NCBI GenBank assembly: GCA_023140215.1
Contig: JAGLMC010000066.1
Coordinates: 1 to 35,480 of the forward strand
Reading direction: 5' to 3'
Length of the DNA stretch: 35,480 bases
From: Alphaproteobacteria bacterium
Lineage (GTDB): Bacteria > Pseudomonadota > Alphaproteobacteria > Micavibrionales > Micavibrionaceae
The stretch's first letter is position 1. Every line of letters starts with the position of its first letter. The translations under genes and the position numbers were made by a program. The notes under the pieces are model-generated. The model ran no database searches. It saw only the letters and a program-made list of their open reading frames with translations, and was not told the origin of the DNA. This document shows positions 8,361-27,524 of the stretch, one piece after another.

Positions 8361-8999
8361 TTAGAAACTATAATTTAAGCCTAATCCGTAAGTCCATGCA
8401 TTATCAACAACATCATCAAAATCAGCTGTTTGATAACGCACAAGACCACGCATATTTATATTATCTGTAAAGTTAACTTGCGCACCACCGCCGACACGGA
8501 AACCGATTTCACTTTCATCAGCATCAATAGAACCAGTGCCCGGAATCGTTGCTGTAAATTCAGCTTTACTCCAGCTAAGACCTGCTGTGCCGATTAATTC
8601 AAACTTTCCTTCTTTGTCTAATGGCAAATAACCAAGCCCGTCAAGCATTATGCCTTGCACTTTTACGTCTGTGCTAAAATCAACCGCTGTGACAATACCC
8701 GATCCAACAGTTGTTCCATTGGCAATACTTTTGCTCTCTTCTTTGGTACGGAAATAGCCAAACTCTACCCCCAAATTTTTATAAAAGCGATTTCCAACAT
8801 GAATATTAAGACCATCAAGACTGTCTTCTAAAATAGTATTTCCATCCAGTGCCAAGCCACCACCAATATCGTAATTATTATAATCATAGACTGATCTTTG
8901 CAGATCAAAACCAACATATGGTTTGAAATTCATCTCTTGCGCTTGTGCAGGAAATGTAAATGCAGCTATACAAGCTGCGGTACAGAGTAGTTTTTTCAT
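8361..8999 (-). CDS. Outer-membrane beta-barrel (porin/opacity-like) protein
   Basis: A 212-residue protein with a Sec signal peptide (MKKLLCTAACIAAFTFPAQA, cut after AQA). It then shows alternating strands typical of the 8-stranded OmpA/opacity-type barrel (KPYVGFDLQRSVYDY, IHVGNRFYKNLGVEFGYFRT, VRYQTADFDDVVDNAWTYGLGL). It ends in an aromatic residue (NYSF), the BAM recognition signature. The ATG at 8999 has CGGGAG upstream. A strong intrinsic terminator and a structured RNA lie immediately upstream, with the U-tract ending only about 30 nt before this ATG. There is hardly room for a promoter in between, so its mRNA probably reads through that element. The ligand or role of the barrel is unknown. 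Confidence 0.82.
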   Translation of the reverse strand: MKKLLCTAACIAAFTFPAQAQEMNFKPYVGFDLQRSVYDYNNYDIGGGLALDGNTILEDSLDGLNIHVGNRFYKNLGVEFGYFRTKEESKSIANGTTVGSGIVTAVDFSTDVKVQGIMLDGLGYLPLDKEGKFELIGTAGLSWSKAEFTATIPGTGSIDADESEIGFRVGGGAQVNFTDNINMRGLVRYQTADFDDVVDNAWTYGLGLNYSF

Positions 9000-9027
9000 C
9001 GGTTTTAACTCCCGTTTTTAAGTTAAT

Positions 9028-9056
9028 AAAAAAAACCACCAGAGGTGATCTCTGGT
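9028..9056 (-). terminator. Strong intrinsic terminator ending the structured RNA, just upstream of the barrel gene
   Basis: On the minus strand a perfect 7-bp stem ACCAGAG/CTCTGGT (9038-9044 with 9050-9056, 5-nt loop) is followed by GG and eight consecutive T. It has the textbook form of a rho-independent terminator. The 9-nt segment 9043-9051 of this hairpin is also the exact complement of 9257-9265, so terminator and long-range helix cannot both form. Confidence 0.78.
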
Positions 9057-9275
9057 AGCCGGATGTTCAAAACCGCTCGTAAAAGAAAACGGCGCGATAG
9101 TCTTTAGGCCGAAGCCTTGGACATGCACCACCGCCACCCGGCCAAAGACCGAGGTGCGGCATCTTTTTGATGCGTTTCTTTTTAAAGAAAATACACCAAA
9201 TAACGGCTGATGCCAGCCGCTTTTACGAAAGGGTTTTGAAGCCCCGCGAGCTGCACAGATCACCTGTACAACTCA
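9028..9275 (-). ncRNA. Unassigned structured RNA or attenuating leader upstream of the barrel gene
   Basis: A segment clearly richer in G and C than its surroundings and without a credible protein. It folds into a long rod closed by three perfect 9-bp helices: 9043-9051 with 9257-9265, 9066-9074 with 9232-9240, and 9077-9085 with 9220-9228. Inside the rod are hairpins at 9106-9117 (cUUCGg tetraloop on the minus strand), 9135-9156, 9159-9173 and 9204-9219. The minus strand is favoured by the UUCG loop and by the eight-T terminator at 9028-9056. I could not match it to tmRNA (no tag frame, no GGTTCGA...CCA end), RNase P RNA (no GAGGAAAGTCC), SRP RNA or a riboswitch I know. A 6S-like RNA is possible. 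The 5' end near 9275 is inferred from a weak promoter. Confidence 0.6.
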
Positions 9276-9281
9276 TTTCTG

Positions 9282-9310
9282 ACTTTACGGGAAAGAATGG
9301 AGCGGAGCAA
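9282..9310 (-). promoter_or_regulatory. Possible sigma-70-like promoter of the structured RNA
   Basis: On the minus strand, TTGCTC (9305-9310) and TAAAGT (9282-9287) are separated by 17 bp, placing a start about 9275, just before the first strand of the outermost long-range helix. The matches are weak (3/6 and 4/6), so position is the main argument. Confidence 0.3.
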
Positions 9311-9381: not shown

Positions 9382-9870
9382 ATGGTTGCTGAAGAACGCC
9401 GGGTTAAAGAAGAAATAGAAAGGGAAAAATATCGAGAGCGATGGGAAGCTGCAAACGTTATCATGATTGACTATAGTAATTTCTGTATAAAAATGTTAGT
9501 AACATTGAATAGTACAGCAATACTTGCTTCTATAGCATTTATAGGAAGTTTTTCTTTAAATAAAAATCCAGTTTTTGAAGCAGATATAATTGCTAAATCT
9601 ATTCCAAACTCTTTTTTAGCTTGGTCAGCAAGTCTTTCCGCAATTTTACTATCCGCCCTTTTTACGTACTTTTGCCACCGTTGGTATCCTACAATTCTTT
9701 ACGTAGCACATAAGCAAGATTATATTGATATATATGAAAAGCTTACTTTTAAGGAAAAAATGTCATACTACGCTTACAATATTTTTGTCTGGATAGGGAT
9801 AATAAGCGGTATATTTTCATTACTAATGTTTCTTTGTGGCATATGGAACATTACAATTTCTTTTGTTTAA
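9382..9870 (+). CDS. Hypothetical three-TM membrane protein
   Basis: A 162-residue protein I do not recognise. The start is ATG 9382, preceded by AAAGGAG at good spacing; the frame extends upstream to 9322, but that extension runs through the Shine-Dalgarno. A highly charged N-terminal segment of about 28 residues (MVAEERRVKEEIEREKYRER, probably helical and cytoplasmic) is followed by three membrane segments, near residues 38-58, 76-98 and 133-158. The loop between segments two and three contains HRWYPTILYVAHKQDY. There is no catalytic motif. It stands alone between the structured RNA and the macro-domain gene, and its function cannot be inferred. Confidence 0.65.
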   Translation: MVAEERRVKEEIEREKYRERWEAANVIMIDYSNFCIKMLVTLNSTAILASIAFIGSFSLNKNPVFEADIIAKSIPNSFLAWSASLSAILLSALFTYFCHRWYPTILYVAHKQDYIDIYEKLTFKEKMSYYAYNIFVWIGIISGIFSLLMFLCGIWNITISFV

Positions 9871-25862: not shown

Positions 25863-27524
25863 ATGGGAATAGTAGGAACAGATGGAAATGATTCTTTACA
25901 TTTTCAGGGAACTCTTGGGCAACTTACAATGTCGATTACGAATCCCTTTAGCAATGAAATTATTGATATAGATGATGAATTTAGAATAAACACTACCACT
26001 TATGACGGTCTGGGTGGTGATGATGTTCTTTATATGAATAATATTGCTGATGCTTTGTTCTTGGTAAATGATGCTGGAGAGCAAACAATCATGAATATAG
26101 AAACAATTGTTGCTGGTGATGGCGGTGACGTTATTAATCTAGCTCATGAAACTGTGACAATTGGTGATATAATAATATCTGGTGGATACGGTGATGATAT
26201 TCTTTGGGGTAATGTCGGTAATGATTACATTCGAGGAATTTATGGTAATGATATCATTGATGGCGGTCCGGGAGATGATATTTTACAAGGCGGTGATGGT
26301 GATGATCGTGTTAGTGGCGGTCTCGGTAATGATACCGTTTCCGGTAATGATGGTAATGATATTCTGTTTGGCGGTAACGATATAGTATCTATTGTGCATG
26401 ATAAAGATTTCGTTGATAGCATTGTATTTCCTCATCTTTTAGAGGGCGTTAATATTGCAAGTTTAGTGCCTCCGGGGACTAGTGCTCTTGGTTTTGCTGA
26501 AGATAATATGAGTGTAGATTTTGATGCAATGGCCACTCTTACTTTCCGTGATGGTTTTGCAGGATATAATAATACACTTGGTATTTATTCAATAGCTGAA
26601 GATGGCACTATTGAAGTGGCTAATGTGCTTTGGGCAAATTCTAAAGATGCCGGAATTGATATTGCGCATGAGATTGATTTGCCGGTAGGAGCAAATGGTG
26701 GAGATTTTGCGTTTTTTATCATCGCTGATGGTGATCGCGTTAATAATGAATATGATGGCTTAGATATTACAGGCGAAGGCAATATCAGATTTGTTTATGA
26801 TTTTGGCGGAGCCGGTGAGCGTGCAGCTAATATTTCTGATGATGGAAGTTTTATTACAATTGTTTATGATGACGGCGTAATTGTTCAAGCGCTTGATGGC
26901 CCTCACTATCACACAACGGAACGCGGTGAAAGTACGGATATTAATTGGGATGGTCAAACTCATATGATTTCTGGCCTTGTTGATGTTGGACAACAAGATG
27001 TGTTGCGTATCGGCTTTGAAGATCTTCCTAATCTTGGTGATGCTGATTATGAAGATGTGTTTTTTGATTTTAATGTTATTGAAACGATTACTACTCCGGC
27101 AAGTGAAAATGGAGATGACATTCTTGAGGGTGGTTATGGTGATGATATTCTCTATGGTGGTAATGGAGATGATATTTTAATTATTGGTATTGGACAAGAT
27201 GATGTCTATGGTGGCGGTGGGAATGATACATTTCTTTATGAATTTTATTTTGAAGGTATTGATACTTTAGTTGATACAATTCATGATTTTGAAATGGGCG
27301 CTAATAATGATGTGTTGGATATTAATGATATTTTACAAGATTATAGCTCTATTGATGATGCCATTGAGGATTTTGTTGAAGTAACAAGCTTGAATGGGGA
27401 CACGCACGTTTATGTAAATGTAGATGGTGCTGATAACGATTTTGTACAGATTTTAACGCTAACCGGTGTTGATACTACTCTTTTAGATATGCTCAATAGC
27501 GGTAATCTGGTCGTTGAATTATAA
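25863..27524 (+). CDS. RTX calcium-binding protein with DUF4114, type I secretion substrate
   Basis: A 553-residue acidic protein without Sec signal. The start ATG follows GGGGAAG. RTX nonapeptide repeats (GGxGxDxx) occur at about residues 105-172 (GGPGDDILQGGDGDDRVSGG) and again at about 413-450 (GGYGDDILYGGNGDDIL). Between them lies a DUF4114-type domain, recognisable at its end by DVLRIGFEDLPNLGDADYED (FED and GDADxxD). The last 90 residues (FEMGANNDVLDINDILQDYS to GNLVVEL) resemble the VCA0849-type type I secretion C-terminal target domain. It is probably secreted through an HlyB/D/TolC-like system and folds on calcium outside the cell, perhaps as an adhesin or surface protein. No transporter genes are adjacent. 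Confidence 0.88.
   Translation: MGIVGTDGNDSLHFQGTLGQLTMSITNPFSNEIIDIDDEFRINTTTYDGLGGDDVLYMNNIADALFLVNDAGEQTIMNIETIVAGDGGDVINLAHETVTIGDIIISGGYGDDILWGNVGNDYIRGIYGNDIIDGGPGDDILQGGDGDDRVSGGLGNDTVSGNDGNDILFGGNDIVSIVHDKDFVDSIVFPHLLEGVNIASLVPPGTSALGFAEDNMSVDFDAMATLTFRDGFAGYNNTLGIYSIAEDGTIEVANVLWANSKDAGIDIAHEIDLPVGANGGDFAFFIIADGDRVNNEYDGLDITGEGNIRFVYDFGGAGERAANISDDGSFITIVYDDGVIVQALDGPHYHTTERGESTDINWDGQTHMISGLVDVGQQDVLRIGFEDLPNLGDADYEDVFFDFNVIETITTPASENGDDILEGGYGDDILYGGNGDDILIIGIGQDDVYGGGGNDTFLYEFYFEGIDTLVDTIHDFEMGANNDVLDINDILQDYSSIDDAIEDFVEVTSLNGDTHVYVNVDGADNDFVQILTLTGVDTTLLDMLNSGNLVVEL

Follow-up and report, generated by a model that had tools for sequence, protein, structure and literature searches.

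A structured leader RNA of Micavibrionales matches the ribosome-binding site of the gene it precedes and may be a C4/sRNA-Xcc1-type antisense switch

A structured RNA ahead of an outer-membrane protein gene

The window, that is, the whole 35,480-nt stretch of alphaproteobacterial DNA analysed here, carries on its minus strand a structured RNA element (9028-9275) followed by a gene for a 212-aa outer-membrane beta-barrel protein with a signal peptide (8361-8999; PF13505, E 3.7e-17; PF01389, E 1.1e-4). Read 5' to 3', the element comprises a 5' hairpin, a 5' domain that mimics the downstream target, a core resembling the phage RNA C4 and a terminator. It is adjoined by a divergent gene (9382-9867, plus strand) for a small protein that lacks any Pfam match and appears to contain membrane segments. 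Farther along, a plus-strand gene at 25863-27524 encodes a 553-aa protein in which GGxGxD-type motifs recur, apparently as RTX calcium-binding repeats. An 81-aa open reading frame (9018-9263, minus strand) was set aside as a protein, given that it overlaps conserved RNA helices.

The minus strand of 9028-9275 folds with -114.4 kcal/mol, versus -74.1 (sd 4.5) in dinucleotide shuffles (z -8.9, 0/200). The plus strand is likewise well folded (z -7.0), but the T-run of the terminator and the gene that follows establish minus as the sense strand. This fold, together with covariation in relatives, upholds the proposal of an earlier, sequence-only reading that an unannotated structured RNA is encoded on the minus strand. 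The cUUCGg hairpin that it had noted on this strand is present, and the letters confirm its three exact 9-nt complements, at 9043-9051/9257-9265 (AGGTGATCT/AGATCACCT), 9066-9074/9232-9240 (TTCAAAACC/GGTTTTGAA) and 9077-9085/9220-9228 (TCGTAAAAG/CTTTTACGA). As long-range helices, the two inner ones are conserved with strong covariation, but the outermost is not: all nine of its pairs form in the window sequence only, as against 1-5 of 9 in 16 relatives, and its bases fall in the 5' hairpin and the terminator hairpin, both of which are conserved local structures. A long-range helix between these two hairpins acting as a kissing or anti-terminator device was rejected for this lack of conservation.

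Several local features frame the element, all on the minus strand. The 5' hairpin (9248-9274; GAGUUGUACAG gugau CUGUGCAGCUC) shows covariation at all 7 pairs counted in alignment A1, and a second conserved hairpin (CGGCUGGCAUCAGCCG, 9204-9219) is 100% paired in 17 sequences, with one compensatory pair. At the other end, a terminator scan identifies an intrinsic terminator (9028-9060; ACCAGAG AUCAC CUCUGGUGG and a U-run), the stem of which covaries in 59 sequences. Upstream, a candidate promoter (9282-9310) consists of a -35 box TTGCTC (9310-9305), a 17-nt spacer and a -10 box TAAAGT (9287-9282); a loose promoter pattern precedes 27/93 copies of the element versus 4.7% in shuffles, which is weak evidence for this candidate, and a stricter sigma-70 scan did not report TTGCTC-17-TAAAGT. 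The sequence ACCA (9053-9056), lying right after stem P1 of the core and doubling as the first bases of the terminator stem, corresponds to a tRNA-like RCCA and is a candidate RNase P determinant. The C-G, C-G and A-U pairs of this region are unchanged in 58/59, 57/59 and 54/59 sequences, while the adjacent terminator pairs vary freely; because RCCA is near-invariant among such variable neighbours, the pattern suggests recognition by RNase P.

A multicopy family with two mutually exclusive folds

Copies of the element were detected by blastn in 28/58 related genomes, several per genome, and covariation among the homologs is overwhelming. A covariance model (R1) built on the element's 3' part has matches in 103/142 genomes within the order Micavibrionales, in 58/385 genomes sampled in the class and in 48/398 sampled in the phylum, with up to 9 copies per genome and one strong copy in the window's own genome. 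We extracted 153 copies, 144 of them non-redundant. Nearly all end in a terminator shortly before the Shine-Dalgarno (SD) sequence and start codon of a gene: an open reading frame of at least 35 aa starts within 90 nt in 139/144 copies, at a median of 22 nt past the terminator. In one terminator-less copy (L032:3376-3488, minus strand), SD and ATG come straight after the core, and at another locus (L028:3635-4088) two elements stand in tandem, each with a short open reading frame starting within about 15 nt after it.

The downstream proteins form 95 unrelated groups, most of them without any known family; those recognized include outer-membrane barrels (7/113), Xre regulators, HNH nucleases and zinc ribbons. 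A crude signal-peptide rule selects 63/139 downstream open reading frames versus 19/220 in the background, an enrichment that is indicative only, as the background frames are longer. At L065, L073, L089 and other loci, the genes resemble nucleases or defence-type genes (DUF4268, PDDEXK_4, HNH; PADLOC candidates UzuA, PDC-S11 and PDC-S26). Among clear homologs of the window's outer-membrane gene, the element accompanies those in genomes G124 and G019 but is missing from those in G018 and G122 (L185, L186); the leader was therefore gained or lost independently of the gene.

The element can adopt two folds that have strands in common and exclude each other, and both covary. In state A, a helix joins UUNNNAACC, located in the 5' half, to GGUUNNNAA, close to the 3' end. 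The 5' strand of long-range helix P2 (UUCAAAACC, 9232-9240) mimics the downstream ribosome-binding site (RBS) region, and the helix that it forms with 9066-9074 has 96.7% of cells paired and 4/9 pairs changed on both sides across 17 full-length sequences; a neighbouring 5' strand (UCGUAAAAG, 9220-9228) is the partner of the loop of hairpin P3. In state B, a mid-element GRCCGGGNG pairs with CNCCCGGYC ahead of the terminator and encloses two hairpins, giving the C4-like core (9057-9143): stem P1 (9143-9135 with 9065-9057), hairpin P2 with the cUUCGg loop, hairpin P3 and single-stranded J3/1. Across 59 distinct sequences, 97.5% of the state B cells are paired and 310 are changed on both sides versus 76.5 in shuffles (0/500), and slid controls collapse; the alignment used (A3) was fitted to the state B structure, and a plain MAFFT alignment (A1) shows the same picture. 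For the window copy, state A is favoured by 18.8 kcal/mol in the full RNA, and the core alone folds to state B. The terminator core (ACCAGAG/CUCUGGU) is intact in both folds.

An antisense segment matched to the downstream ribosome-binding site

Within the core, a segment that is partly single-stranded in state B (GCGGUUNNNAACNCCCGG) is complementary to the RBS region of its own next gene above those of others. In the window, it comprises J3/1 and flanks (GCGGUUUUGAACAUCCGG, 9059-9076), and its target is the SD region of the outer-membrane gene (CGGGAGUUAAAACCG, 9000-9014), which reaches the base before the AUG (8997-8999). Over the 144 copies, computed pairing with own RBS regions is -11.99 kcal/mol versus -10.38 for swapped ones (z -8.3, 0/20000 permutations), and pairing within the target is most frequent at -11 to -7 relative to the start codon, on the SD sequence. 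For four control segments and for a control target window lying further downstream, z ranges from -2.0 to +0.7. With one copy per downstream gene family, the match persists (z -6.75, 0/20000, n=95); the permutation tests assume independent copies, and de-duplication by downstream sequence and gene family lessens their relatedness but leaves some of it. On average, own targets exceed swapped ones by a modest 1.6 kcal/mol, and generic SD/anti-SD pairing accounts for much of the affinity. In the window, CGGUUUUGAACAUCCG and CGGGAGUUAAAACCG form a duplex of -16.7 kcal/mol that covers -15 to -1. When the 144 targets are ranked for the window RNA, its own comes 4th; for the window target, 61/144 other RNAs pair better than the window RNA, which is thus unexceptional for its own target.

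The 5' domain holds a second copy of the target motif. Against their own 5' leader, the J3/1 antisense segment scores z -16.1 and the P3 loop z -25.6 (0/10000 permutations, n=137). The P3 loop was also considered as a second target-binding site and rejected, the signal being unconvincing: z lies between -1.7 and -0.1 for several target windows, and the best single window under an earlier definition reached -2.3.

Relationship to C4 and sRNA-Xcc1 and the proposed off-switch

In an Rfam scan of the window, nothing scored above gathering thresholds except a tRNA elsewhere, in agreement with the sequence-only reading, which had seen no signatures of tmRNA, RNase P RNA or SRP RNA; these three and 6S RNA were rejected for want of any Rfam match. 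That reading had left three identities open. A 6S-like RNA is not borne out, as no 6S family matched even at E up to 10, and the best resemblances are weak ones to C4 (22.3 bits) and sRNA-Xcc1 (23.1 bits), both over 9049-9149. Nor is it a wholly new sRNA class: it belongs, in elaborated form, to the C4/sRNA-Xcc1 kind. The third suggestion, a large cis-regulatory leader, agrees with the reading preferred here.

C4 RNA is known from phage immunity. In the annotated phage P1 record, putative a1 and b1 sites are followed by C4, a2 and b2, and icd, and Rfam detects C4 at 68.8 bits and the c4-a1b1 leader at 51 bits. C4 (RF01695) and the c4-a1b1 leader (RF03163) of P1/P7 share with the family described here the order of parts, a leader target mimic, a three-stem core (P2 tetraloop, P3 loop, J3/1 loop) and an RBS target in the next gene. 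Each of these C4 features has its counterpart in our data: the three-stem core (outer P1, P2, P3 and J3/1) in the covariation of state B over 59 sequences and the folding of the core alone, the loop-to-RBS complementarity in the two permutation tests (z -8.3 and -6.75, 0/20000 each), and the a1/b1 mimic upstream of the core in the leader matches of the P3 loop (b1-like strand 9220-9228) and J3/1 (a1-like strand 9232-9240). By contrast, both loops pair with the target in P1 C4, whereas here J3/1 matches the SD sequence and the P3 loop has no convincing match; an intrinsic terminator, absent from the annotated P1 layout, lies between core and gene; the domain with the mimic is far bigger; and the downstream genes are a varied chromosomal set instead of antirepressors. 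By model score, the window RNA does not count as a C4 member (22.3 bits against RF01695, below the gathering threshold of 45), and R1 run on phage P1 gives no match at E <= 10. Many copies per genome and an extra 5' region are also features of the C4-like Group 1 sRNAs of Acinetobacter baumannii, whose reads start at the C4 core (PMC5320573); their targets were given as unknown and had not been linked to the adjacent gene, whereas here the adjacent RBS is the matched partner.

The window copy also falls short of sRNA-Xcc1 (RF02221; 23.1 bits, gathering threshold 53), but relatives scoring 54.6-57.9 bits exceed that threshold. At E <= 1e-3, the RF02221 model matches 51/94 Micavibrionales genomes and 0/14 control genomes; many of these matches are R1 copies, one of them (G124:C16) standing ahead of the nearest homolog of the gene in the window, and the element at L087 satisfies both models. 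Judged by these model matches, the element shares ancestry with sRNA-Xcc1, a link established through the relatives. A second, sRNA-Xcc1-like subfamily (L218-L257, e.g. L238, L248 and L255; core GGUCGGGGAGGCGGCGGAAUACAAUAGCG...), brought to light by the RF02221 model, has the same 5' hairpins and domain, terminator, position and gene-specific RBS match. In 40 copies of this subfamily, a set independent of the main one, the own RBS is preferred (z -4.6, 0/20000; control -1.6). In Xanthomonas, sRNA-Xcc1 lies upstream of symE, acts by a mechanism given as unknown and is carried in integron cassettes (PMC12444791). Neither a 5' mimic domain nor an RBS-antisense role is described for it in PMC2996969 or PMC12444791. 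Xanthomonas sRNA-Xcc1 may repress symE likewise.

Our preferred reading, to which we assign a probability of roughly 0.7, is that the window RNA is a cis-encoded antisense leader of the C4/sRNA-Xcc1 type that would repress translation of the next gene. It is likely a built-in off-switch like phage P1 C4, because its segment matches the ribosome-docking site of that gene. Transcription would begin just upstream of the 5' hairpin, at the candidate promoter; most transcripts would stop at the intrinsic terminator, yielding an RNA of about 245 nt, and some would continue into the outer-membrane protein gene. In the C4-like core, J3/1 would be exposed and, being complementary to the SD region, would block translation, acting in trans as part of the terminated RNA or in cis within the read-through mRNA. 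The 5' domain would act as a target mimic that binds the J3/1 segment and the P3 loop, masking both (state A), and removal or unfolding of this domain would free the core (state B). A plausible agent is RNase P, cleaving ahead of stem P1. In phages, this enzyme excises C4 by a cut at the P1 stem's 5' end, and the C4 loops occlude the RBS, blocking translation (PMC5320573).

It is about an even bet that C4-class antisense leaders are, beyond phages, a general and reusable translational switch of bacterial chromosomes, with hundreds of copies in Micavibrionales and other Alphaproteobacteria each retuned to the RBS of its next gene and controlling envelope and accessory genes, the built-in mimic setting a threshold and sRNA-Xcc1 working alike. 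With the present data, C4 and the orphan sRNA-Xcc1 (as described in PMC2996969 and PMC12444791) come under one architecture, and sRNA-Xcc1-like RNAs gain a testable target, the next gene. If the switch is real, these leaders would rank among the cis-antisense systems with the most copies in bacteria, each copy specific to the gene that it precedes; the self-contained decoy could serve as a threshold or memory device, surface-protein control in obligate predators such as Micavibrio would be concerned, and a programmable translational switch would be on offer.

The place of the element before diverse genes is typical of leaders in general, and every copy has an intrinsic terminator between structure and gene. 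The folds might set terminator formation, perhaps via a ligand or protein, with the RBS match secondary, as in a transcription attenuator or riboswitch; the outer three terminator pairs draw on the GYC bases that also enter stem P1 in state B, which makes terminator and stem P1 competitors. We consider this unlikely, in that the terminator core stays intact in both folds and the gene-specific SD match is left unexplained, and a metabolite riboswitch was rejected, because the 95 unrelated downstream gene families share no function. Within the antisense-leader reading, a large share of control could still be transcriptional, because the terminator between core and gene has no equivalent in the annotated P1 layout; with three bases shared by the terminator base and stem P1, control may be mainly translational or also transcriptional.

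Promoter-like sequence and terminator also delimit a discrete unit, and sRNA-Xcc1 was described as an sRNA of about 88 nt with many predicted targets (PMC2996969), as would suit a free-standing sRNA acting in trans on other mRNAs, its adjacency to a gene being incidental. This is improbable: start codons at a median of 22 nt after the element in 139/144 copies leave no room for a separate promoter, and the antisense segment matches the adjacent gene. More improbable still is a mobile cassette of the MITE or integron type whose DNA structure, not RNA, matters. The numerous copies, several at contig ends, the movement of sRNA-Xcc1 in Xanthomonas integron cassettes (PMC12444791) and the presence of the element at some but not all homologs of the window's outer-membrane gene would fit it, but copies within a genome have diverged, G-U pairs occur often, and terminator, SD sequence and orientation are preserved. 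An integron origin was rejected, since no integron integrase above the cut-off occurs in the 58 relatives, as was the idea that the window copy came from a phage or plasmid, since it has no blastn match in either collection and the exact core pattern is missing from viral contigs. Horizontal spread and RNA function are compatible. In G019, several near-identical units of element and outer-membrane gene (L022-L025 and L027), some with shortened genes and many at contig ends, are recent duplications.
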